Shown piece after piece: positions 12,224 through 29,188 of a DNA stretch of 64,000 nucleotides. The first letter of the stretch is position 1; each line of letters opens with the position of its first letter. Under the pieces are notes generated by a model. It saw nothing but the letters and a program-made list of their open reading frames with translations, made no database searches and had not been told where the DNA came from. This stretch comes from Halorhabdus amylolytica (GTDB lineage Archaea > Halobacteriota > Halobacteria > Halobacteriales > Haloarculaceae): the NCBI RefSeq assembly GCF_004944975.1, contig NZ_SPQG01000005.1, positions 126,030 to 190,029 of the forward strand, given 5' to 3'. A program made the translations under genes and the position numbers.

Positions 12224-13441
12224 CTATCCTGTGGAAGGCGAATATTCGCCATTCCCGTTCAACGTCCCCGACTTCAGGGCGAGGTGATGGGTCGCCCCTC
12301 CAGAACCAGACTTGAGCCGGTTCTGGATGTATCTGTGTGCGATATTGCGTGCCGCGTTGTAGTCGGCGTGTAGCTCTTTGCCGCACTTCTGGCAGCCAAA
12401 CTCGTCGCCGTCGCGGTTGTCCTCGTGGGTGAACCCACAGTCGGCGTGACTGCACCGCTGGCTGGTGTAGGCTGGATGGACTGACTCGACGGCGATTCCT
12501 TCGGCACGGGCTTTGTACGTGGTCTGGCGTTTCAACTCGCGGAACGCCCACTGCTGGAATTTCGAGGCGTTCGAGATACGTTCCCGTATCTGTTCTAAGT
12601 CCTCGAACACGATTACCGAACAGCCCTGCGACACGGCTTCTGCGACCAGCCGCTTCGAGGCTTGGTGTAAGAAGTCCTCGGACCACCGGGCGAACCTCTC
12701 CCCGATGGACTCGATGGTAAGGTGTGCGCTCCGCGTGCCCTGCTGTTGCAGGCGAGCGCGGCGGCGTTCGTACTCGCGGCGCTTGTGATTCAGCAGGTCG
12801 GCGTTGCCGATGAACGCCCCCGTGCTGGTGACAGCCAGATACCCGTCCACGTTCCGGTCCACGCCGAGAACTGTTCGGTTCTCGGCCTCTCCCGACGACT
12901 CGTCGCGTTCCTGCGTGACGGAAACGTGGAGGTAGTAAGTATCGGTCTGGCGGTCGTAGCGGAGTTTCGCGCCCTGCTTGGTCCACTCGTCGCTGTCCAT
13001 GTACTCGGCCTGCGGGGAGTCCTCGGGGTAGACGTACTCGGCGTGAACACGACCGTTGCCGTATGCCGCCAACGAACAGTAGCCGTCGAAGTAACTGATG
13101 GCGTTCGTATTGTAGACGGTCGTGTTCGAGGTGAACACGGGTTTCGAGGTACGTTCGCCGTTTTTCATCTTCTCGACGCACGTTGAGAGTGCGTCGGCGG
13201 CATGGTTGACGGCGGCCACAGTCAGGTCCGAGTGCAACCCGGTAGCGTCCCGTATCTCGTCGTAGACGAGCGGCTGTAGCCGAGAGCGCGACGTGATCAC
13301 GTAGCCGTCGTCGTCGCCCTCCCATCCCCGGTCGGCAAACCGCTGTGCGGCGTCCCGAAACGTGTTCATGGTGCGTTTCAGGTCGTCGCGGCGCTCGTCG
13401 GGGACAGAGAGTTTGACGACGGCGGTACGCTGAATCCCCAT
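12224..13441 (-). CDS. tnpB: TnpB RNA-guided endonuclease (IS1341-type)
   Basis: A 405-residue TnpB. RuvC motifs are intact: LGVDRNVDGYLAV (catalytic Asp), VIVFEDLEQIRERI (Glu) and HADYNAARNIAHRY (final Asp). The zinc ribbon lies between the last two as TSQRCSHADCGF with FGCQKCGKE (four Cys). The N-terminal HTH/OrfB segment (residues 1-130) begins MGIQRTAVVKLSVP. TnpB proteins are omegaRNA-guided nucleases that keep the element in place. With all catalytic residues kept, this copy is probably functional. A TATA-like tttatatg lies upstream on the minus strand (about 13468-13475). Confidence 0.9.
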   Translation of the reverse strand: MGIQRTAVVKLSVPDERRDDLKRTMNTFRDAAQRFADRGWEGDDDGYVITSRSRLQPLVYDEIRDATGLHSDLTVAAVNHAADALSTCVEKMKNGERTSKPVFTSNTTVYNTNAISYFDGYCSLAAYGNGRVHAEYVYPEDSPQAEYMDSDEWTKQGAKLRYDRQTDTYYLHVSVTQERDESSGEAENRTVLGVDRNVDGYLAVTSTGAFIGNADLLNHKRREYERRRARLQQQGTRSAHLTIESIGERFARWSEDFLHQASKRLVAEAVSQGCSVIVFEDLEQIRERISNASKFQQWAFRELKRQTTYKARAEGIAVESVHPAYTSQRCSHADCGFTHEDNRDGDEFGCQKCGKELHADYNAARNIAHRYIQNRLKSGSGGATHHLALKSGTLNGNGEYSPSTG

Positions 13442-14109: not shown

Positions 14110-14183
14110 GCCGCCTTAGCTCAGACTGGGAGAGCACTCGACTGAAGATCGAGCTGTCCCCGGTTCAAATCCGGGAGGCGGCA
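14110..14183 (+). tRNA. tRNA-Phe (GAA)
   Basis: A 74-nt cloverleaf. The acceptor arms gccgcct and aggcggc pair fully, the D-arm contains tagctcagactggg, the anticodon stem is ctcga/tcgag with the loop carrying GAA, and the T-arm contains ggttcaaat. The discriminator base is A, CCA is not encoded, and no intron is seen. Its 3' end serves as the integration site of the island that follows. Confidence 0.95.
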
Positions 14184-14194
14184 TACCCTTCTCG
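14170..14194. other. attL (tRNA-Phe 3' end)
   Basis: A 25-bp sequence whose left 14 bases are the 3' end of tRNA-Phe. It is repeated at 29048-29072 with a single mismatch (a/g at the 16th base). It marks the left junction of the integrated element. Confidence 0.85.
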
Positions 14195-14267: not shown

Positions 14268-15902
14268 GTGCAGCTGATCGAGACTGCACCCCACGAGTTT
14301 GCCGCCCACTATCTCTTTACGCGGTACGGTATGGAGCCGTTCTTCGCCTTCGATAGTCGGATCAAAGAGGGAGATGGCAGTCAGCGCGGATCATTCGAGT
14401 ACCGTGGAGAGAAGTGGGACGTTTCACTCTCATATCGGGATTCAGGACTCGCGCACCCTGGGAGTCACCTTCCCTCTGGAACCGAGTTCCAACTCGAATC
14501 GATGCGGGAGTTCGATCTCCACGTCCAAAGCGCGGACGATCCGATCGGAGAGCGTTCATTTCATGCTCATATTGCTCCACGCTGGCAGGGCATGGAAAGC
14601 GAGAACGGACAAGAGATCTCGATCCCCGATGGTGTCGATGAAGGCGTAAACATCCACATCCAAGGCTCGAATATCGAGTTTGCGGAGTATCTGAGTCTCA
14701 TCAAATCCGCTGTTGAGTCTGTGGGAATCAGCCGTCATTACTTCCTCAGGGCGCACGAGTTTTCGACGATTCTGGATGCGGAACGCTATGTCCGCGTTCA
14801 TGAGGAAGACAGTGGGTCAGTACATGCTCGCGATGGTCCTCTCGCCCAATTAGGCCATCTACTTGAAAATGACCGCTCAGGCCGCCGTAAGTTGGTTCAA
14901 TTCGATAGTGACGAGAGAGGGAGAGACCAGCCTGGGTACTATCATACAGCGACTCTCGGACCAAAGCGAGTCCGTGAGGCGTTCCCTGATCATGAGCTTC
15001 CGAAAGAGGTCAAGCACTACTACGCACGAGAAGCAGTTAATCTCGACTCCGACCGCTCGGTAGCTCATCCGAAAGTTGGCGTATCGTATCAGCGATCGTT
15101 CTGGGATGAGCAACTGGGGGCATCGAAAGCGGATATCGACAAACTGAACGAAGAACTCGAGGAGACACTTCTCAGTGTTCTCTCGGAAGCAGGTCTCCCA
15201 GTCCGGCCTGGAATGGGAACCTACGTTGAAGACGCATATTTCCAACCTGCCGAGTCTGATCGAGAACGGAATCTCGTCGAGCTTGATTTCACTCAGATCA
15301 AGCACCGACAGGAATCAGTCGTCATCAAGCACCTTGCCGATGGAATTTCACCAACAGCTTGGGATACGTTGGAGGCTCTAGTCACTGATGGCGGTGAAGT
15401 AAGTCCAAAGGATATTGCGGAAGAAGCGGATCGTCATCCAGGTAGCGTTCGGCGAGCTCTTGATCAAATCCCCGAACTGGTAGAACACGAATATGGCAGT
15501 GTTTCGCTCCGATCGAAGTACATTGCTGATCTCGTACACGATGCCGTGAGAGAAGCCAAGGAGGCCACAAGACGAGCCGCTGAAGCGGGAGCCAAGGCGA
15601 TGGAAGCAGCTGAGAAGGGGCTCGACGAAACCACTAGTACGTTCATCGCTTGGGCAGCCAAGCATGATATTGACCTTCAAGACCGTGAGGGTGGTCCGCT
15701 CCGGTTAGATTTTGGGACGGTTGATGAGGTTCGGCGGCTGTTACGAGAAGGATACGAGCTGTGGACTGCTGCGGATATGCCCGCAGAACGATTTCGGATG
15801 GCGACGGTTCGGTACAAGCAGAAAAGGGATGCTGGCTACGAATCAGTCGACGCGACCGAGGTACAATCATACACTACGGAGGCATGGCGGTACTTAAGAT
15901 GA
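14268..15902 (+). CDS. Element-encoded protein with C-terminal winged-helix domain
   Basis: A 544-residue protein, the first gene inside attL. It starts at GTG 14268, preceded by a purine-rich aggggtgagg. The N-terminal about 350 residues (beginning QLIETAPHEFAAHYLFTRYG) do not match a domain I can name. Residues about 355-415 look like a winged helix (ISPTAWDTLEALVTDGGEVS, then DIAEEADRHPGSVRRALD). A charged coiled coil with EAKEATRRAAEAGAKAMEAA follows. Large winged-helix proteins in this position next to tRNA genes are common in haloarchaeal integrated elements, so a replication or regulatory role is plausible but unproven. Confidence 0.6.
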   Translation: MQLIETAPHEFAAHYLFTRYGMEPFFAFDSRIKEGDGSQRGSFEYRGEKWDVSLSYRDSGLAHPGSHLPSGTEFQLESMREFDLHVQSADDPIGERSFHAHIAPRWQGMESENGQEISIPDGVDEGVNIHIQGSNIEFAEYLSLIKSAVESVGISRHYFLRAHEFSTILDAERYVRVHEEDSGSVHARDGPLAQLGHLLENDRSGRRKLVQFDSDERGRDQPGYYHTATLGPKRVREAFPDHELPKEVKHYYAREAVNLDSDRSVAHPKVGVSYQRSFWDEQLGASKADIDKLNEELEETLLSVLSEAGLPVRPGMGTYVEDAYFQPAESDRERNLVELDFTQIKHRQESVVIKHLADGISPTAWDTLEALVTDGGEVSPKDIAEEADRHPGSVRRALDQIPELVEHEYGSVSLRSKYIADLVHDAVREAKEATRRAAEAGAKAMEAAEKGLDETTSTFIAWAAKHDIDLQDREGGPLRLDFGTVDEVRRLLREGYELWTAADMPAERFRMATVRYKQKRDAGYESVDATEVQSYTTEAWRYLR

Positions 15903-16177: not shown

Positions 16178-19100
16178 ATGCCTTCCCCCTTTGAGTTCGG
16201 CGATGTCGAGATATCGAATTTCACCGCTGATGAAACAGCAAAGTTTCTCCGGAGTCTACTCTCGGCTGAAGCTACGTCCTGTGGTATGGGTCTAGAGAGT
16301 TATCACGTTCCTATAAAAGTCAATGTGCCAGATGGAGGGATAGACGCTTTAGCAGAAAACAAATCTGAGAACCGGACGTCATTGATCCCAACTGGAAAGA
16401 CGGGCTACCAATTGAAGCGTAGTGATCTCTCCCCAAAAGAATGTGAGAAAGAGGTTTTAGATGAAGATAGTGGAGAGGTAAAAGAAATGGTTCAGGAGGT
16501 TCTTAAAGAAAATGGAACGTATACTTTAGTCATATTTGATGATTTGACAGACAGGAAAATAAAAAATAGAAAAGAAAGACTAGAGAATACATTCGCTTCC
16601 CACGGTTTTGACTCAGCTGCTGTCGAGATATTCGACGTTAGTAAGTTAGTCACAGTCGCACAACAGTATCCAAGTCTTGCAGTCCGCTACCACCCCCAGA
16701 TTGATGTTGGTGTTGATATCGACACTTGGGCAGATCGTCAGTCAGTCTCATCAATCCACACCTACGTAGATGGTGGTGATAGAAAAAAGTATCAAGATAA
16801 TATAAAGAGAGGAATAACATCCTCGAATACCGCTTCAGTAACACGAATCACAGGCTTATCAGGAGTTGGTAAAACTAGATTTATATTTGAAATATTAGAT
16901 AAGGACGCTCTGCGAGGGCAAGTTATCCATACAAGTGAAAAATCACTAAGTCAAAGTCAATTAATACAATATTTAGAAATAAATGACAATGTAAAATGTA
17001 TCTTAGTTGTCGATGAATGTTCGCCGGAGTATCATGAATCGTTGGTGAATAAATTTAGAGAGCGGGGCAACCGGATTCATATAGTAACAATATCTGATAG
17101 TCTCAAGCAAGTTAGTGCGGATATTCAAGTAGAGTTGAAGCCCCTAAGTAAAGACATTATTGAAGAGTTGATTAAGAGAGAAAGACCAGATCTAAACCGA
17201 AATGCGATCTCTAAAATTGTTGAATTCTCTGATGGATTTCCGGGTATCACGGCTACTCTGCTGCCAACGATTGAATTCGGCGGATGGAACTCAGAATTAG
17301 ATCTCCCGGCGGGTACTTTGATGGACAAATTATTAGTTGGTAATGAGAAAAAAGAGGATCGCCCGAATCTCCGTGACATAAAGAAAACACTAGAAGCATT
17401 TGCGATGTTCGAAAGAGTTGGGTGGAAAAACCAAAATGGGGATTTAAGTGACGAATTTATTGAGGTTTATGAGTTATTTGGACTAGATTCCGTAGGAGAA
17501 GAATCAGAAGTCTCTGAAATAGTCTCATATGCTAAAAAAAGAGGACTACTTAACGGAGAATCTGCTCTGAGCCTTCAGCCGTTACCTCTCGCACTTCTAC
17601 TCATCAAATCACGTTTGGAAAGAGATCAGATCACTTCTGATCTTTTGGAGCTGCCCCCCGGATTAATTAGGCGTGCAGAGAGACGAATACCATACTTTAA
17701 TGCATTTGAATCGGGGCGTGATTGGGTTGCGGATGTTTTGAGTCGGAGAGGTTGGTTTAATAATACTGCTCTACTAGAAACTGAATCTGGAAGCCGGATT
17801 TTTAAAGCATTAGCTCAAGCCTCAGCTGAAGATGGAATAAAGGTTTTAGACCGATTCTTCCGGATGCGGTCACTTTCCGAGTTAAAAGATTTCAAAGAAG
17901 GACGAAGAGGAATGGTAAGGGCACTCAGGGGGATTGCAGTCTGGGACGCTACTTTTGATGATGCAGCGGGCTATCTTCGACGGTTAGCAATCGCTGAAAA
18001 TGAGAGGTTTGCGAACAATGCCACAGGTATCTACACAGGACTGTTTTCACCAGTACCGGGTCAACTATCTCCTACTGAACGTAGGCCAGCAGATAGATTG
18101 CATCACATTGAAGATGGTTTGAGAGCGGAGAACGATAGAGAGTTTGACTTGGCAGTTGATGCTAGCAAAAAAGCACTCAAAACTCGGAACTATCAAAAGA
18201 CAGGACATCCGGAGCGGCAAGGAGCAAGAGAATTTCCTAACTTTTGGTACCCAGATTCCCGAGAAGAGTGGGTCTCATATTTCAAATTAGTCTGGGAAAC
18301 TCTTGAAGAGTGCATATGTGAATTGGAAGAAGAGAGAAGAAACAGAATCCTAGAGATATTGTCCGATGCCGCTCGAGACTATGTATCTCTCTCCGATGAA
18401 CTGGATGAACTTGTGCGAAACTCATTTAAGGACCTCTACGAGGAAGACTGGGACAACTCACAACAGATAATTAGTTCGATCATATCAATAAATAAATTTG
18501 AAGCAGAAAACCTTGATGAAGAGGCGAGAGAAGCATGGGCTGAGATCGAGGGTTGGGCTGTTAATCACTCTTATCACTCAAGATTCATCAGATATGTATA
18601 CATATCTCAGGTATATAGATCAGAAGAAGAGAAAGAAACGAGAAGAAGGAACGTAAATGAATTAGCAGAGGAGGCATTCTCAAATATTCAACATCTTCGT
18701 CAAGAATATGACCTCCTGTTCCAAGACGATGTTACCAAAGGATATGAATTTGGTCAGGAGATCTCAAAGAGAGATTCGGAGAGTGAGTTAATTGACGAAA
18801 TATTGGATGAACTTGCTGAACGTCACCCAAAGCAACTTCCCTCATTCGTAATTGGATATTTGCTAATATTAGAAGAACGTGACTCTGATAGATATGATAA
18901 AGTTATTGAAGAGATGCAAGAAGGGGCACTACAAGATTACTATCCCACCGTTGTGCGGATGATAAGTCCAACCGACGAAAAAATTCAAGAAATTATTGAT
19001 GAGGTTGAAAGTGGCACCCTTGATGTAGAGGCCCTTCGAGAATTTGGTAGATTACCTAGTCCTCATAAAGCCATATCAGAAAAGCTTCTACAAGAGATAT

Positions 19101-19930
19101 CTCGACGCTTATTAGAGTCAGACAGTCAATCAGCCCATATAGCACTAGAACTGCTATATTCCTTCTACGTCTATCCAGATGATAGTCCAGATCCAGATGA
19201 GAGCTTTCTTTTAAATTCGGTCACACATCAAAACGTTCTGGTACTCCCAGAAAAGGGTCATACTCATACTCAATCTCATGAGTGGCAGAAAATCTCAGAG
19301 GAGATACTAGATGAGGATCCAAATCTTGCTGCTGATATTGTCGAAAACGTAATTGAAGCATCTGTTGAGGATGGTCATTTTGTGAGACTTACTAGTCATC
19401 ACAGCGGGGTTCTCTCAAAGTGTGTAGAGGTAAATCCAGACGGAGTCTGGGAAGTGGTAGCAAGCAAACTTAGTGAAGAAGATTTCAAGTCCTGGTGGAC
19501 GACACAATGGTTAAGCGGTAACCTTTCTTTAGGTGGTCCAATCTTCCATAGGTTTGATTGGGAAGATGTACGTGAATGGATCGAAGAGAACCGTGAGGAT
19601 CATGCGCCATTCGTTGCAAACTCCATGGGAATTCACCTTCCCGAGGGACCAACGGAAAACACCCTAACGCGGGAAATGTTAGTAGAATACGGTCACTTGA
19701 ATGATGTAAGGAGTTCTCTTCGAAGTACCTATCTGTCAGGACACTGGGCTGGCTCTTCAGAAGAACATTACAAACAGAAGCGCGACGAAATAGAAGAATT
19801 TCTCTCAATTGAAGAGGCGAGAGAAAATCCTTCAGAAAGTGTGTTTTCTTGGGGAGAATCTCTCCTAGATCTCCTTGAAGATCGTATCGCAAGAGCAGCA
19901 GTCAGGGAAGAACTGCTCGGAATGAATTAA
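16178..19930 (+). CDS. STAND-type NTPase with N-terminal Mrr-like nuclease domain (Avs-like)
   Basis: A 1250-residue protein in strongly AT-rich DNA. Residues about 1-170 look like an Mrr/PD-(D/E)XK nuclease: DGGIDA at 52-57 and YQLKRS at 77-82 mirror the DGGID...QCK catalytic pattern of Mrr. A P-loop NTPase follows, with Walker A GLSGVGKT at 226-233, Walker B CILVVDEC at 274-281 and a GFPG motif at about 353-356, as in STAND ATPases. Residues about 450-1250 are helical with many acidic amphipathic segments, consistent with a TPR/HEAT-like sensor. Nuclease-STAND-repeat order is the architecture of Avs (AVAST) antiviral sensors. Defence is inferred from architecture and island context. Intact, no frameshift. 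Confidence 0.72.
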   Translation: MPSPFEFGDVEISNFTADETAKFLRSLLSAEATSCGMGLESYHVPIKVNVPDGGIDALAENKSENRTSLIPTGKTGYQLKRSDLSPKECEKEVLDEDSGEVKEMVQEVLKENGTYTLVIFDDLTDRKIKNRKERLENTFASHGFDSAAVEIFDVSKLVTVAQQYPSLAVRYHPQIDVGVDIDTWADRQSVSSIHTYVDGGDRKKYQDNIKRGITSSNTASVTRITGLSGVGKTRFIFEILDKDALRGQVIHTSEKSLSQSQLIQYLEINDNVKCILVVDECSPEYHESLVNKFRERGNRIHIVTISDSLKQVSADIQVELKPLSKDIIEELIKRERPDLNRNAISKIVEFSDGFPGITATLLPTIEFGGWNSELDLPAGTLMDKLLVGNEKKEDRPNLRDIKKTLEAFAMFERVGWKNQNGDLSDEFIEVYELFGLDSVGEESEVSEIVSYAKKRGLLNGESALSLQPLPLALLLIKSRLERDQITSDLLELPPGLIRRAERRIPYFNAFESGRDWVADVLSRRGWFNNTALLETESGSRIFKALAQASAEDGIKVLDRFFRMRSLSELKDFKEGRRGMVRALRGIAVWDATFDDAAGYLRRLAIAENERFANNATGIYTGLFSPVPGQLSPTERRPADRLHHIEDGLRAENDREFDLAVDASKKALKTRNYQKTGHPERQGAREFPNFWYPDSREEWVSYFKLVWETLEECICELEEERRNRILEILSDAARDYVSLSDELDELVRNSFKDLYEEDWDNSQQIISSIISINKFEAENLDEEAREAWAEIEGWAVNHSYHSRFIRYVYISQVYRSEEEKETRRRNVNELAEEAFSNIQHLRQEYDLLFQDDVTKGYEFGQEISKRDSESELIDEILDELAERHPKQLPSFVIGYLLILEERDSDRYDKVIEEMQEGALQDYYPTVVRMISPTDEKIQEIIDEVESGTLDVEALREFGRLPSPHKAISEKLLQEISRRLLESDSQSAHIALELLYSFYVYPDDSPDPDESFLLNSVTHQNVLVLPEKGHTHTQSHEWQKISEEILDEDPNLAADIVENVIEASVEDGHFVRLTSHHSGVLSKCVEVNPDGVWEVVASKLSEEDFKSWWTTQWLSGNLSLGGPIFHRFDWEDVREWIEENREDHAPFVANSMGIHLPEGPTENTLTREMLVEYGHLNDVRSSLRSTYLSGHWAGSSEEHYKQKRDEIEEFLSIEEARENPSESVFSWGESLLDLLEDRIARAAVREELLGMN

Positions 19931-20057: not shown

Positions 20058-20657
20058 ATGCGAATCGAGCGCAACGAGAACCACCACTCGTATCGCTGCT
20101 GGCTCACGCCGGACGAGTACAAGACCCTCAAGCAGAGCGCAGGGAGCTACCGCGACTCCCTGATTATCCAGCTCGGTGGTGAAGTCGGACTCCGTTCCTT
20201 CGAGATCCCGCAGATCCATCCGGAGCACATCAAGCACGTCGACGGCCACGCCAGGCTTCGGGTTCCCAAGGGGAAGGACACCGAAGGAAGCGGTGGGAAG
20301 CCTCGCGACGCCTACCTTCCCGAGCAGGTTGAGAGTGAGTTACTTCGCTACGCCAACGTCGAAGACATTGATCGAGATGAACCGATCGTCAATCTGAGCG
20401 AGCGTTCCGTGCAGCGCCGGGTCAAAGCGACCGCCGAGCGCGTCGCAGAGGAAACCGGAGACGCCGACTGGCAGAAAGTGTCGAGTCACGATCTCCGGCG
20501 CTACTATGCACAGACCTTGCTGGTACGCGAGCGGATGAATCCGCGTGTGGTGATGGAAGTCGGTGGGTGGTCGTCCTTCTCCGCGGTAGAGCCATACCTG
20601 AATGCGCCGACGGCTGAGGTTGTGAACCGGGAATTCGAAGACATAGTTTTCAGTTGA
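20058..20657 (+). CDS. Stand-alone tyrosine recombinase catalytic domain
   Basis: A 199-residue protein consisting only of a tyrosine-recombinase catalytic domain. Catalytic residues visible are Arg in GEVGLRSFE (about R46), His and Arg in SSHDLRRYY (H144, R147), Trp in GGWSS (W171) and the nucleophile Tyr in VEPYLN (Y180). The N-terminal core-binding domain found in XerC/D-like enzymes is absent apart from a short leader. Such short recombinases are frequent in haloarchaeal elements. It could resolve dimers, mediate an inversion, or belong to an earlier integration event. It is GC-rich, unlike its neighbours on both sides. Confidence 0.82.
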   Translation: MRIERNENHHSYRCWLTPDEYKTLKQSAGSYRDSLIIQLGGEVGLRSFEIPQIHPEHIKHVDGHARLRVPKGKDTEGSGGKPRDAYLPEQVESELLRYANVEDIDRDEPIVNLSERSVQRRVKATAERVAEETGDADWQKVSSHDLRRYYAQTLLVRERMNPRVVMEVGGWSSFSAVEPYLNAPTAEVVNREFEDIVFS

Positions 20658-21998: not shown

Positions 21999-22607
21999 TC
22001 AATCACCAGAGAGAAGCCAGATGATAACCGCACCGTGCTGATGGTGTGGGTGCTGAAGGCCGTCAAAAGGCTCGATAGCGGCGATCTCAACGTCGATGTC
22101 GTACCAGTACGAAACATCACGCTGGAACTTCTCGGCGATCGTTTCCGCCCGTAATTGTTCGTACTCCTCATTGTTCTTCTCGTAGTAGAGCCCGAGGAGT
22201 CCGGTCGGTTGGTCGAAGCCGGAGTCGACTAACTTTCGAGCGTCGGTGAGCATCGACGACAAGCTGCGCTCAGGGAACGGGCTGAAGACGCTCTTGTACA
22301 TGTTGGGATCGATGTTCCCATTGTCCAGCCGGAACCGGAGTAATTTGGCCTCGATCGGGAGACGAACGCCGTCGGTCTCGACGAGCAGGTCACACCGCTG
22401 CTGGCTACCTGGATATGGAACCTCAGTCTGGATATCGCCAGCGCGATCCGCTTCCAATTCGTCGAGGATCATCTCAATCTGGTTCTCCTCCTCAAAGGGA
22501 CCGATACCAGCCTTCCATCGACTGTGCTGTGCGTCGGCATCAGCTTGTGGGATCACGTCGGCAAAGTGTCGAGCGACTCGTTGGAGGATCACTGAGGGAT
22601 TTGACAT
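21999..22607 (-). CDS. PD-(D/E)XK nuclease-like protein
   Basis: A 202-residue protein. The middle part, TEVPYPGSQQRCDLL then VRLPIEAKLLRFR, fits the PD-(D/E)XK core: Asp of RCDLL, a beta-strand spacer, then Glu-x-Lys of IEAK. An upstream acidic helix (EEENQIEMILDELEADR) could supply the Glu of helix 1. The C-terminal half ends with a hydrophobic strand (HGAVIIWLLSGD). Family not recognised; restriction-like or repair nuclease functions are possible. The frame is open 120 bp upstream, but MSNPSVILQ at 22607 is the better start. Its 5' end faces the 191-bp tandem repeat array 125 bp away. Confidence 0.58.
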   Translation of the reverse strand: MSNPSVILQRVARHFADVIPQADADAQHSRWKAGIGPFEEENQIEMILDELEADRAGDIQTEVPYPGSQQRCDLLVETDGVRLPIEAKLLRFRLDNGNIDPNMYKSVFSPFPERSLSSMLTDARKLVDSGFDQPTGLLGLYYEKNNEEYEQLRAETIAEKFQRDVSYWYDIDVEIAAIEPFDGLQHPHHQHGAVIIWLLSGD

Positions 22608-22732
22608 GCATTCCAATGACTTCGGGTAGCAGATAGCGCTTTCCCAATCATCTCGAAGAAGGGGAAGACAGGTGCTCAAGGCCTCACTCGTCGCAGTGAG
22701 CCAATTCGAGCGGTAGAGCGATCTCAAGTAGC

Positions 22733-23720
22733 GCTAAAGCGGCGGTATCGGGGGTAAAATCCCTCCCCTCATTCCGGTGATCGTTCGCCCCGTCCCAACA
22801 CAGAGCAAGAACAGGGGATACAGGGACCTTAAGCAGCGCTCAAGCGAAAGAACAGCCGGCGGGCAAGCACCCCTTTGAGCGGTGGTCGTTCCCGGTCAGT
22901 CCGAAACGAACGGGAGAGACCACCCAGAGAAGGGCGCTCAAGGGGTGGTTTACCCCCGCTGAAGCGGTGGTCTCAGGATCCGGTATCGAAGAGCACCGAG
23001 AATAGCGGAGCGAAAGTGCTCAAGCGGCGCTCAAGCGAAAGAACGACCGGCGGGCAAGCGCCCCCTTGAGCGGTGGTCGCTCCCGGTCGTTTTGAGAGAA
23101 GGGAGAAAGACCACCCAGTAAGAGGGTGGTCAGCGGGTGATTCACCCCCGCTGAAGGGGTGGTCTAAGGGGCCGATATCGAAGACCACCGAGAATAGGGG
23201 AAAGAGGGTGCTCAAGCAGCGCTCAAGCGAAAGAACGACCACCACCGAGGCACCCCTTGGAGGGGTGGTCGTAGCCGGTCGATCTGAAACAAAGGGGAGA
23301 GACCAACCGGAAAGGGGGTGCTCAAGGGGTGGTTTGGCCCCCTGAATGGGTGGTCGTATTGGCCGCTATCGAAGAGCACCGAGAATAGCGGAAAGAGGGG
23401 CCTCAACCAGCGATAAAGCCAGAGAACGACCAGCGGCGAAACACCCCTTGATCGGTGGTCGTTGCCGGTCGACCTGAAACGAAGGGGCAAGACCAACGAG
23501 AAAGTGGTTACTCAAGGGGTGGTTTGCCGCTCCTTCAGGGGCGATCTCGGTGGTAGGAATTGAAGACCAGCAAGATCAGCGGATAGAGGGCAATCAAGCA
23601 GCGAAATACTTCGCTTGAGCGAGGGCGGATAGTTGGCTGATAGCAGCAATGTTTGCTGCTTCCCGATTTCGACGGAATTGAAGACCAGCAAGACCAGCGG
23701 ATAGAGGGCAATCAAGCAGC
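22733..23720. repeat. Long tandem repeat array, 191-192 bp units
   Basis: Four consecutive units begin at 22838, 23029, 23221 and 23412 (lengths 191, 192, 191, 191). A degenerate short unit of 105 bp (22733-22837) precedes them and a 118-bp unit (23603-23720) follows. Most units open with gctcaagcgaaagaac and end with ctcaagcagc. Each full unit contains several ggtggtc and gaccacc blocks in opposite orientations, plus cccctt-gag and ctcaagggg complements, so units can fold. The period is not a multiple of three and the short open frames on both strands give Arg-rich, non-halophilic peptides, so the array is not coding. Function unknown. Confidence 0.9.
23642..23660. repeat. Perfect hairpin inside the last repeat unit
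   Basis: agcagcaa and ttgctgct form an 8-bp stem with a 3-nt loop. It lies in the part of the 118-bp unit that differs from the four full units. Confidence 0.6.
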
Positions 23721-24032
23721 GAAAAACAGGCCGTACGAGCAGCGGTCGAAATGGGTAATTGGTCGTTGGTCGTCGATCAATCGACAACCATCCAGGCAAC
23801 GATCAAAGGCCGAAGGAAAACGGGTTACTCGGACTTACCCGGTTATTGATTCGGGTGTTGCGACTTCCGTTCGAAGACCATCGTCGTCGTCAAAATTGGC
23901 GAATAATGTCCCTCATAGCATCATACACTGATCACGCATGCAGCATATGGATTACTAGAGGACGGTTTCACGATCTCATGATCAAGAGTTATACCCACAC
24001 TATTTTCTAGCCGTAGTCTATTGGTTTGGTCG
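23721..24032. other. Non-coding stretch after the repeat array
   Basis: About 310 bp with no convincing gene. It contains an inverted repeat at 23768-23789 (arms ggtcgtcgat and atcgacaacc, one mismatch, 2-nt spacer). The right part becomes AT-rich and probably holds the promoter of the small acidic protein at 24033. Confidence 0.45.
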
Positions 24033-24585: not shown

Positions 24586-25974
24586 ATGTCAGCCTCGGAA
24601 TCAAAAGCAGCGGTGTGGGACGAGTGGGTGACAAAGACCATTCTGTCGGATGTCCGTTCCGAGGAGACGCCTGATCCTGTCCCGATGATCGACGAGTCGG
24701 GGTCTCAATTGGAGATGACTGACGCATATGACTCCTATCGATTGGGCCGTGGAAGTGGCGATTATCTATATTTGCTCTATCTTCTTGCGGAGCCTGTCGA
24801 CGGACCGTCTGCTGTCATCCCTGTCTATATCGGCGAAACAAGCCAGATCGCAACCCGGCTCATGGACCATTTCAGAAAGTTACGGGATGCCCTCCCCATC
24901 AAAGACTGGGAAGACGATGGCTCGTGGGGTAGTTACGGGAAGTACGATCACATTGCGACAGTCTACGACCGCGCGGACTCTCCTCTCTACGCCTGGGTAG
25001 TCGACGTTACCGAAATCGACACTGGTCCGTATGGATATCCCACGTATCGACAGGAACTTGAAGCCAAGACAGTCGGACTCGTCCATTCCCACCCGCGGTT
25101 CAACCGCGTTTTTGCAAACCGGGATTTTGTGCCGAACAGAGTTCCCCACGAGATGGGGAAGGTCGGACCCGACTGGGTTGATCTCGACCACAATGACTCA
25201 AACGAAGAAGCAAAAATGGTTGCTGATATCGAGGCACGCGAGTTGAGCGGCAAAAGCAAAACATCGCTGTGGCACGACTGGGTTGAACAGACAATCTGTC
25301 GTGAGATTCACGATTCCGATTCAGAAGACCCGATTCCGCTGTTCGAGACGGACGACGATCTTCTCGTTGAACTTACGGAAGTGGGATCGTCGTCGGTACT
25401 CAAGCGTAGTGACGAAATCGATGCTCGAATCCGCAAAGAAGGGAAACGTTGTGTCCACAGCGATGGCGTGACAGACGGCCCCGATGGATTGCTCTATGTC
25501 ATGTACCAGCTCGCCTCTGACGGCTCATCGCCAGAAGATATTATTCCACGATATATTGGTAAGGCAGAGGCCTACGGGAAGAAGAACGAACTGAGTGCCA
25601 ACTTCGAAGAAATCGCATATGATCGGACTGGGACTCGGAGTTTCGCTCGTTGGGGTGATGGCAGCTACTGGCACGTCGGTGAGTTGTCAGAGACCGTGTT
25701 TGGCGTCGATTCCAAGAAGCTCAGTTGGGCTAGCGAACTCTTTGAGCAGGGAACTCGTCGGTTGAAAGACCAGACGTATCTCTGGATCAGGGCCTGGGAC
25801 CCTCACCACTATCCGGGACCGTACGGGTATCCGGCGTACCTGGCCGAGGTGGAAGCCCTGTTGATCGGGCTGGTTTACGAGGCCTACCCTGAGCACCTCC
25901 TCAATCACGCAGAGGTGCCAGACATGGCGCCTGCCAACCGGACCGACTACCAGTTCCGACCCGCTACTGAGTAA
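24586..25974 (+). CDS. Protein with two tandem GIY-YIG-like nuclease domains
   Basis: A 462-residue protein made of two homologous halves (about residues 9-225 and 229-462). Each half opens with a WxxWV motif (WDEWVTKTIL; WHDWVEQTIC) and a DPVPM/DPIPL turn. Each then has a hydrophobic strand (YLYLLYLLA; LLYVMYQLA), a YIG motif (PVYIGETSQIATRL with Arg at about 91; PRYIGKAEAYGKK) and GPYGYP with an Asp/Glu-rich metal-site helix (RQELEAKTVGLV; LAEVEALLIGLV). Half 1 keeps the YIG-x-T and following Arg expected of an active GIY-YIG nuclease; half 2 lacks the Thr and has a longer insertion. A DNA-cleaving role in defence or element biology is inference. Confidence 0.68.
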   Translation: MSASESKAAVWDEWVTKTILSDVRSEETPDPVPMIDESGSQLEMTDAYDSYRLGRGSGDYLYLLYLLAEPVDGPSAVIPVYIGETSQIATRLMDHFRKLRDALPIKDWEDDGSWGSYGKYDHIATVYDRADSPLYAWVVDVTEIDTGPYGYPTYRQELEAKTVGLVHSHPRFNRVFANRDFVPNRVPHEMGKVGPDWVDLDHNDSNEEAKMVADIEARELSGKSKTSLWHDWVEQTICREIHDSDSEDPIPLFETDDDLLVELTEVGSSSVLKRSDEIDARIRKEGKRCVHSDGVTDGPDGLLYVMYQLASDGSSPEDIIPRYIGKAEAYGKKNELSANFEEIAYDRTGTRSFARWGDGSYWHVGELSETVFGVDSKKLSWASELFEQGTRRLKDQTYLWIRAWDPHHYPGPYGYPAYLAEVEALLIGLVYEAYPEHLLNHAEVPDMAPANRTDYQFRPATE

Positions 25975-27754: not shown

Positions 27755-29002
27755 TCAGCTCTCGCCAGCACTGGCGAACTCTCGAGCTTCGCGGAGGATT
27801 TCAGTGTTCTCGTCAGCAAGTTCGATGAACCGCTCGACACGCTCGATGTCGTCGAGCAGCTCGGGATCGTCGCGAGCGATCCGGAGCAGTTCGGTTCGCG
27901 TCTTTCGTTGGTCCTTTTCGAGTTCCTCCATCGCCGCGGCGTCGAGCGCCTGGTGGCACCAGACACAGGTAGGTTCGTCTCGTGGCGTCTCGTTCCCACA
28001 CCGAGGGCATGTGACCGGTGCGATCGGATCGGACTCGTCTTCCTCAACGTCGACGCCGTGGGCCTGGGCAATGGCGCGATCGTTGGCATCACCGAAGACA
28101 GCCACGTATCGGGAAGCGACTTTCGACCCACGGTCCCAGCCGTGGTGATCCTCGATGTGAGCCTGATTCACACCGTCCGACGCGAGATACGAGGCGGAGG
28201 ACTTCCGCATTCGGGTAAACGTCACGTCTGTGTGGGTGATACTGGCCTTCCGGGCGTGCTTCTTGAGGATCTTGAGCTTCATCTGGTAGCTGATGTCCTC
28301 CGGTTTGTTCAGCTTCGACCAGAGGGGCGCATCCGGCTGTTCCGGGGCGGGATGAACGTTCAGCCACTGCTTGAGATAGGGTACAGCAGTCGTCAGGACA
28401 ACCGACCGCTCACCCTTCTTTCCATCGACGGAGATTCGCAGGCCGTACTTGTGGTCAGAAACGTCGCCGACGGTCAGATTTCGGATCTCCCCGCTCCGGG
28501 CACCCGAGTCCCACGCAACAGCGATGAGTGCCTTGTCACGGGCGTGTCGGCACTCGTTGAGCATCGGCTGAATGTGGTCGTCCCACCAGAGCATCTTCGC
28601 CGGGTTCGGCATCGGGTTATAGTCCTTCGATGTGGTCGCCGAGACCCACGAAATGCTGTCGGGGATCTCGTCGCTGTCGCTGACGTGCTTCCCAAACATC
28701 CGAAGAGCAACTCGGTAATCCCGATTCGACTCCTCGTTGTCGTAGGTGTCGTGAATCCAGCGGACGATGTCCTCGGCAGCTCGCTTGTCTTCGAGGGCGT
28801 TAGCCAGCCCACCGACTTCCTCGGCGATACGCACACAGTGTCTGAGGAGCTTCTCACGGCGCTCTTTTCCGTACTGGCTACCGAGCAGGGCAAGCCGACT
28901 GTCGAAGGCCTGGAGTACCTCCTGATCGTCTCCACTCATCTCCTCGCCGCGCTCGATTCGGTCCTGCAGATTCTCGATTCGGCGATCTGCGTTCCTCGTC
29001 AT
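27755..29002 (-). CDS. Tyrosine integrase with C-terminal zinc ribbon
   Basis: A 415-residue site-specific recombinase, the likely integrase of the island. An N-terminal SAM-like domain is followed by the catalytic domain: Arg in DSGARSGEIR (about R169), Lys in DGKKGERS, Arg in TFTRMRKSSA (about R266), HHGWD (about H287) and the nucleophile Tyr in ASRYVAVF (about Y299). The His of the usual HxxR box is replaced by Thr (TRMR). After the domain comes a zinc ribbon, CPRCGNE and CVWCHQAL, then a helical tail. It starts 46 bp from attR and reads into the element, the usual position for integrases that do not split their own gene. Confidence 0.88.
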   Translation of the reverse strand: MTRNADRRIENLQDRIERGEEMSGDDQEVLQAFDSRLALLGSQYGKERREKLLRHCVRIAEEVGGLANALEDKRAAEDIVRWIHDTYDNEESNRDYRVALRMFGKHVSDSDEIPDSISWVSATTSKDYNPMPNPAKMLWWDDHIQPMLNECRHARDKALIAVAWDSGARSGEIRNLTVGDVSDHKYGLRISVDGKKGERSVVLTTAVPYLKQWLNVHPAPEQPDAPLWSKLNKPEDISYQMKLKILKKHARKASITHTDVTFTRMRKSSASYLASDGVNQAHIEDHHGWDRGSKVASRYVAVFGDANDRAIAQAHGVDVEEDESDPIAPVTCPRCGNETPRDEPTCVWCHQALDAAAMEELEKDQRKTRTELLRIARDDPELLDDIERVERFIELADENTEILREAREFASAGES

Positions 29003-29047
29003 CTAGACGGGGGGATGTCATGTGGGCATGTAAACCACCAGTTGAGG

Positions 29048-29072
29048 TCCGGGAGGCGGCATGCCCTTCTCG
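29048..29072. other. attR (copy of the tRNA-Phe 3' end)
   Basis: A 25-bp near copy of attL with one mismatch. The bases just upstream (ccagttgagg) also resemble the tRNA T-arm (ccggttcaaa), so more than the crossover core is conserved. Confidence 0.85.
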
Positions 29073-29163
29073 CAGCGAACAAATTCGTGAGGCATGAGAG
29101 TGGTATCTGACCGGATTTGAAATAGACCAGAAAGGCACAGTGAATCGAGAATTTCTGGGCGTG

Positions 29164-29188
29164 GTTCACAATTCGGGAGGCGGCATGG
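29164..29188. other. Second tRNA-Phe 3'-like sequence (older att remnant)
   Basis: ggttcacaattcgggaggcg and the bases after it match the tRNA-Phe T-arm and acceptor 3' end, with one inserted base and one substitution. It lies 116 bp outside attR with no gene between. Confidence 0.65.

Follow-up and report, generated by a model that had tools for sequence, protein, structure and literature searches.

PD-lambda-4 of E. coli was found through selection for resistance to lambda-vir, and its protection against phage has been shown (Vassallo et al. 2022, PMC9519451). A P-loop NTPase is the sole domain assigned to the system in PMC10952713. Where E. coli loci carry a full-length A gene, gene B follows immediately. 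The Avs proteins, another reference point for the locus described here, are built from an N-terminal effector, a STAND NTPase and a long C-terminal helical arm, as in the deposited structures of Avs3 (8dgc) and Avs4 (8dgf). The window analysed in this study, a stretch of 64,000 nucleotides of Halorhabdus amylolytica DNA, contains at 16178-19930 (+) a single gene for a 1250-aa protein with a predicted nuclease-STAND-solenoid layout. This protein is a distant homologue of PD-lambda-4_A.

Domain architecture of the 1250-aa protein

The open reading frame comprised 1250 intact codons free of internal stops and was present in one copy in the genome. Its start was backed by a 51%-identical relative, whose own N-terminus reads MPSPFDFGDVEI, and comparison with this closest relative indicated purifying selection (pN 0.315, pS 0.807). 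Plain Pfam and NCBIfam scans of the protein returned no confident domain, and phmmer against the PDB sequences was uninformative. The motifs named in a sequence-only reading of the window (DGGID, YQLK, Walker A, Walker B and GFPG) all lay at the places given for them, and of 20,000 shuffled versions of the protein, 2 combined a DGGxD...[QE]xK motif with a P-loop. Structures were predicted by AlphaFold2 from alignments of 65 and 68 relatives, with mean pLDDT values of 91.0 for residues 1-600 and 89.8 for residues 395-1250.

Residues 1-175 (16178-16702, +) are predicted to form an Mrr-like PD-(D/E)XK nuclease domain capable of DNA cleavage. Its active-site motifs are DGGID at residues 52-56 (16331-16345, +) and YQLK at residues 77-80 (16406-16417, +). 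D52, D56, Q78 and K80 were each conserved in 64 of 67 non-redundant relatives, the nuclease domain of the other three being truncated or replaced, and the catalytic D...D...[QE]xK was invariant in alignment A5. In the AlphaFold2 model, helices and strands followed the order expected for a restriction endonuclease, and D52 and D56 directly preceded one strand, Q78-x-K80 lying on the strand after it. An hhalign comparison with a profile of Mrr brought the motifs into register and scored 35.3 over 118 columns, above all of 100 column-shuffled controls (24.6 at most), at an hhalign probability of only 63%. The Mrr rows were haloarchaeal proteins fetched by PF04471 and trimmed to the surroundings of their own motif; such trimming does not impose the alignment but is a caveat to it. 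Topology and profile comparison thus bear out the Mrr-like pattern proposed earlier, and a nuclease-like fold was predicted where its absence would have spoken against the proposal (residues 1-170). The domain shares with Mrr_cat (PF04471) the DxGxD...QxK active site, the order of secondary structure elements and the profile similarity, but it is fused to a STAND switch and too divergent for Pfam, in which plain HMM searches named no nuclease in the protein. DUF4365 was considered as the parent family and rejected, since its Pfam model matched 2 of 67 nuclease domains and its hhalign score barely exceeded the shuffles; Mrr was the better match. The Cap4 nuclease model had no match anywhere and hence gave no basis for comparison.

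Residues from about 189 to 482 were assigned, from the sequence and the model, to a STAND NTPase switch. The nucleotide-binding domain (about residues 189-335; 16742-17182, +) carries the Walker A motif GLSGVGKTR at residues 226-234 (16853-16879, +) and the Walker B motif ILVVDEC at residues 275-281 (17000-17020, +). It is followed by a helical and winged-helix part (about residues 336-482; 17183-17623, +) containing GFPG at residues 353-356, of which G353 was invariant. Among the 67 relatives, D279 and C281 of Walker B were invariant, as were G226, G229, G231, K232 and R234 of Walker A, whose conservation is partly by construction because this motif served as the pattern of the collection scan. 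The AlphaFold2 secondary structure placed nucleotide-binding, helical and winged-helix domains in that order.

A Foldseek search of the PDB ranked Avs3 first (E=3.8e-9), followed by an archaeal STAND-TPR protein, SAMD9, Avs4, CED-4, Apaf-1 and plant NRC proteins. The TM-scores were low (0.2-0.3), probably owing to differing domain arrangements, so that this ranking identifies the class of protein without implying close kinship. With VIA-align, NRC4, NRC2 and Apaf-1 were matched at Z 12.8-13.7 over 255-291 residues; Apaf-1 (Z 12.8 over 291 residues) and NRC4 (Z 13.7 over 272) both aligned with a high rmsd, spanning several domains. Clamp loaders reached similar Z values over about 180 residues, covering the nucleotide-binding domain alone. 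A family profile run against the PDB sequences matched plant NB-ARC proteins weakly (E=0.01). The protein therefore resembles NLRs, Apaf-1, CED-4 and SAMD9 in its nucleotide-binding, helical and winged-helix switch and in this weak NB-ARC profile similarity, and differs from them in its effector and sensor domains. The conserved Walker motifs, the domain order and the STAND matches agree with the P-loop STAND NTPase of the sequence-only reading, and the best structural matches were immune and death STAND proteins, not a non-defence ATPase.

The remainder of the protein (about residues 483-1250; 17624-19927, +) was modelled as a HEAT-like helical solenoid of about 770 residues, the presumed sensor, in agreement with the helical sequence noted after the switch. 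The arm resembled the solenoids of SF3B1, karyopherins and CAND1 with scores ordinary for solenoids; such matches are generic, and a sensing role is suggested by the position of the arm. Of the TPR or HEAT repeats anticipated for residues 450-1250, a HEAT-like solenoid was thus predicted.

The AlphaFold2 model, the Foldseek matches and the effector exchange described below all conform to the Avs-type arrangement of effector, STAND NTPase and C-terminal repeats. Avs3 and Avs4, the first and fourth Foldseek matches, share with the 1250-aa protein an N-terminal effector, the STAND NTPase and the long helical arm. However, their deposited chains are 2028 and 1534 aa long, no significant sequence similarity connects them with the protein, and the solenoid here matches HEAT repeats. 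At E<=1, neither PADLOC nor NCBIfam gave a match to an Avs model, the presence of Avs models in either set being assumed, and the family profile retrieved plant NLRs from the PDB sequences at E<=1, but neither 8dgc nor 8dgf. The protein would thus be Avs-like in its working, but by sequence it is no recognisable member of Avs1-5: the proposed Avs-type architecture stood, and membership of Avs1-5 gave way to PD-lambda-4_A as the nearest known family.

Relatives, exchanged effectors and split genes

PADLOC returned PD-Lambda-4_A as the sole match (E=2.3e-28, 96 bits, best stretch residues 5-360); the same model scored 2518 bits over the full length of the E. coli A protein, with B alongside. Homology to PD-Lambda-4_A extended over nearly the full length through intermediates, and direct identity to the E. 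coli A protein was about 25%, over 365 residues only. The two proteins agree in length class, in their nuclease residues, in Walker A and in having a D[NE]C Walker B. They differ in that PD-lambda-4 is an E. coli system that includes a gene B and whose A protein lies on a separate deep branch, whereas the present locus is archaeal and consists of one gene. In a tree of 89 proteins, built by a quick method and rooted at the midpoint, the window protein belonged, with full support, to a haloarchaeal clade of 8, and E. coli A lay on another deep branch; the one family member found to have been tested is this two-gene system, away from the haloarchaeal clade. Gene B was absent from the window and from all other fetched loci in tblastn searches with two E. 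coli B proteins, so as a PD-lambda-4 system the locus is incomplete by its sequence. Across 96 loci, no gene family was found repeatedly next to A, the exceptions being recombinases, components of type I restriction systems and contigs that were nearly identical. The earlier remark that the gene stands alone was thereby confirmed. In one E. coli strain (L028, 8001-13613), PD-lambda-4_A was followed by a reverse transcriptase gene (RVT_1) and not by B.

Relatives were found by an alignment-based scan, whereas a single-sequence query against the genome contigs had retrieved none. They occurred on plasmids and genomes of Haloarcula, Halorubrum, Natrinema, Cyanobacteriota, Pseudomonadota, Bacillota, Chloroflexota, Acidobacteriota, Leptospira and others, and the complete ones were mostly 1,230-1,300 aa long. 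Within haloarchaea they were rare and patchy, being present in 9 of 392 genomes of the order. A collection of deposited phage genomes contained no relative, and 11 were found on viral contigs of IMG/VR. GiPD474 of Salmonella (PMC12724215) was also considered and rejected as an unrelated ParA-like ATPase.

Some gamma-proteobacterial members carry an esterase in place of the nuclease on the same STAND-solenoid body. A protein of Photobacterium kishitanii (L086, 7044-11153) matched PADLOC PD-Lambda-4_A at E=2e-228 from residue 263 onward, and its first 260 residues corresponded to an alpha/beta-hydrolase serine esterase (Pfam DUF676, E=5e-5; PADLOC DUF626_VIII, E=3e-23). Nuclease-bearing relatives aligned to this protein only from its residue 214-265 on. 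The esterase form was also found in Vibrio halioticoli, Lelliottia and Enterobacter roggenkampii. Plasmid records bearing such relatives are AP024877.1, NZ_CP141607.1 and NZ_MT468575.1. Exchange of N-terminal effector domains on a conserved sensor and switch is known for Avs and other NLR-like proteins. The replacement of nuclease by esterase accordingly marks residues 1-175 as an exchangeable effector, and it is the strongest evidence in this study for assigning them that role.

In two haloarchaea the gene was divided. Haloarcula marina carried it as two overlapping open reading frames (L012, 7989-9029 and 9022-11766), and a second genome (G293) did likewise on the reverse strand (L006). The overlap was ATGCCTGA in both, with the break at the identical codon, ahead of the GxP motif, separating nuclease and nucleotide-binding domain from switch and solenoid. 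Between the two species the reading frames were only 53% identical, and pN of about 0.3 stood against pS above 0.8; both halves are thus under purifying selection and have long been retained. From these sequences, the halves are probably made as two subunits; frameshifting may be an alternative route.

Proposed function

We consider it likely that the gene encodes a one-protein STAND, NLR-like antiviral sensor, which would represent a haloarchaeal branch of the family of PD-lambda-4_A and travel as cargo of a tRNA-Phe-integrated element. The proposed mechanism follows that of Avs and NLR proteins. The solenoid would recognise a viral protein during infection, whereupon the NTPase would bind ATP and the protein would oligomerise. 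Oligomerisation would bring the Mrr-like nuclease domains together and switch on DNA cleavage, which would stop the virus, probably harming or killing the cell. The interpretation given in the sequence-only reading was on the whole largely right, and the antiviral function is one that we infer by analogy.

Alternatively, the protein might recognise and cut foreign or modified DNA directly, as Mrr, McrBC and other type IV restriction enzymes do, its NTPase and solenoid acting on DNA instead of sensing a viral protein. The Mrr-like catalytic residues fit such an activity, as does the resemblance of the NTPase domain, taken alone, to clamp loaders and to Cdc6/Orc1, which act on DNA; several DNA-cleaving PD systems also gave direct immunity (PMC9519451). 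Nevertheless, the whole switch has STAND immune and death proteins as its top structural matches, and replacement of the nuclease by an esterase would be odd if the body itself delivered the nuclease to DNA. Direct restriction is therefore regarded as rather unlikely.

If the antiviral sensor reading is carried over to the relatives, PD-lambda-4_A and the 1250-aa protein could together constitute a separate family of STAND immune sensors alongside Avs1-5. Such a family would be single-gene in Bacteria and Archaea, recognise viral proteins, exchange nuclease and esterase effectors, and exist in some haloarchaea in a stable two-subunit form, with effector and nucleotide-binding domain in one subunit and switch and sensor in the other. 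This grouping is put forward tentatively, with a little less than even confidence. What the analysis adds is a place for the PD-lambda-4 A protein among nuclease-STAND-solenoid sensors whose effector can be exchanged, and a wide single-gene family behind it that reaches the haloarchaea. The 1250-aa protein is an archaeal NLR-like candidate with defined catalytic residues and, if the reading is true, would offer a good opportunity to ask whether the NLR-like sensing of viral proteins operates in the same manner in archaea.

The integrative element and its surroundings

An integrative element, as proposed in the sequence-only reading, was delimited by a tRNA-Phe(GAA) gene at 14110-14183 (+), the left attachment site, and by a 35-nt repeat at 29038-29072 (+), the probable right attachment site, which matches 14160-14194, the 3' end of the tRNA-Phe gene and the bases after it, at 86%. 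About 14.9 kb lie between them, including two tyrosine recombinase genes. The first, directly downstream of the 1250-aa protein gene at 20058-20657 (+), encodes 199 aa with an integrase catalytic domain, and the second, at the right end of the element (27755-29002, -), encodes a 415-aa recombinase/integrase. The next gene upstream (14268-15902, +) lies beside the tRNA gene and encodes a DUF7845 protein about 52% identical to a regulator of the pleolipoviruses HRPV-3 and HGPV-1; by this homology, a pleolipo-like provirus may have been the ancestor of the element.

Six genomes of the same genus gave no clean empty site, their counterpart of the right flank being located elsewhere. DNA resembling 29099-29181 of the window was found in one congener about 390 bp after its tRNA-Phe gene. 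One congener had several tRNA-Phe remnants after its tRNA-Phe; such remnants suggest that the attachment site has probably served more than once. Beyond the right attachment repeat, at 29170-29186 of the window, lies a further short remnant of the 3' end of the tRNA-Phe gene.

The gene has a GC content of 41.9% (GC3 34.5%), whereas most of the flanking chromosome lies at about 61-68%. This confirms the low GC pointed out before, but not the recent transfer read from it, since the haloarchaeal relatives are likewise AT-rich (45-55% GC) and the composition thus reflects circulation on mobile elements. The closest relative (51%) also adjoins integrases, and relatives in general were carried on mobile elements and plasmids beside recombinases. 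That the gene is mainly an addiction or inter-element conflict module, directed against rival plasmids or proviruses or securing its own maintenance, would suit the tRNA-integrated element with its adjacent recombinase, the plasmids elsewhere and the patchy haloarchaeal occurrence, but it is unlikely given that the 96 loci held no antitoxin-like or other conserved partner gene, that the E. coli relative was found by phage resistance (PMC9519451), and that anti-plasmid and anti-virus roles are compatible.

Directly upstream of the closest relative, a gene for a 1377-aa P-loop protein (L136, 4160-8293) gave a weak nSTAND3 match and possibly encodes a second STAND sensor. Within the element of the window, four to five tandem units of about 191 bp (22808-23727), about 63-96% alike and noncoding by appearance, separate the gene for a 242-aa protein (22002-22727, -), with relatives annotated as transcriptional regulators, from that for a 462-aa GIY-YIG-like protein (24586-25971, +). 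Relatives of these two proteins are direct neighbours on the haloarchaeal plasmids NZ_CP084473.1 and NZ_CP100458.1. Elsewhere in the window, a 405-aa open reading frame at 12224-13441 (-) appeared by eye to be TnpB-like, of the IS200/IS605 type.
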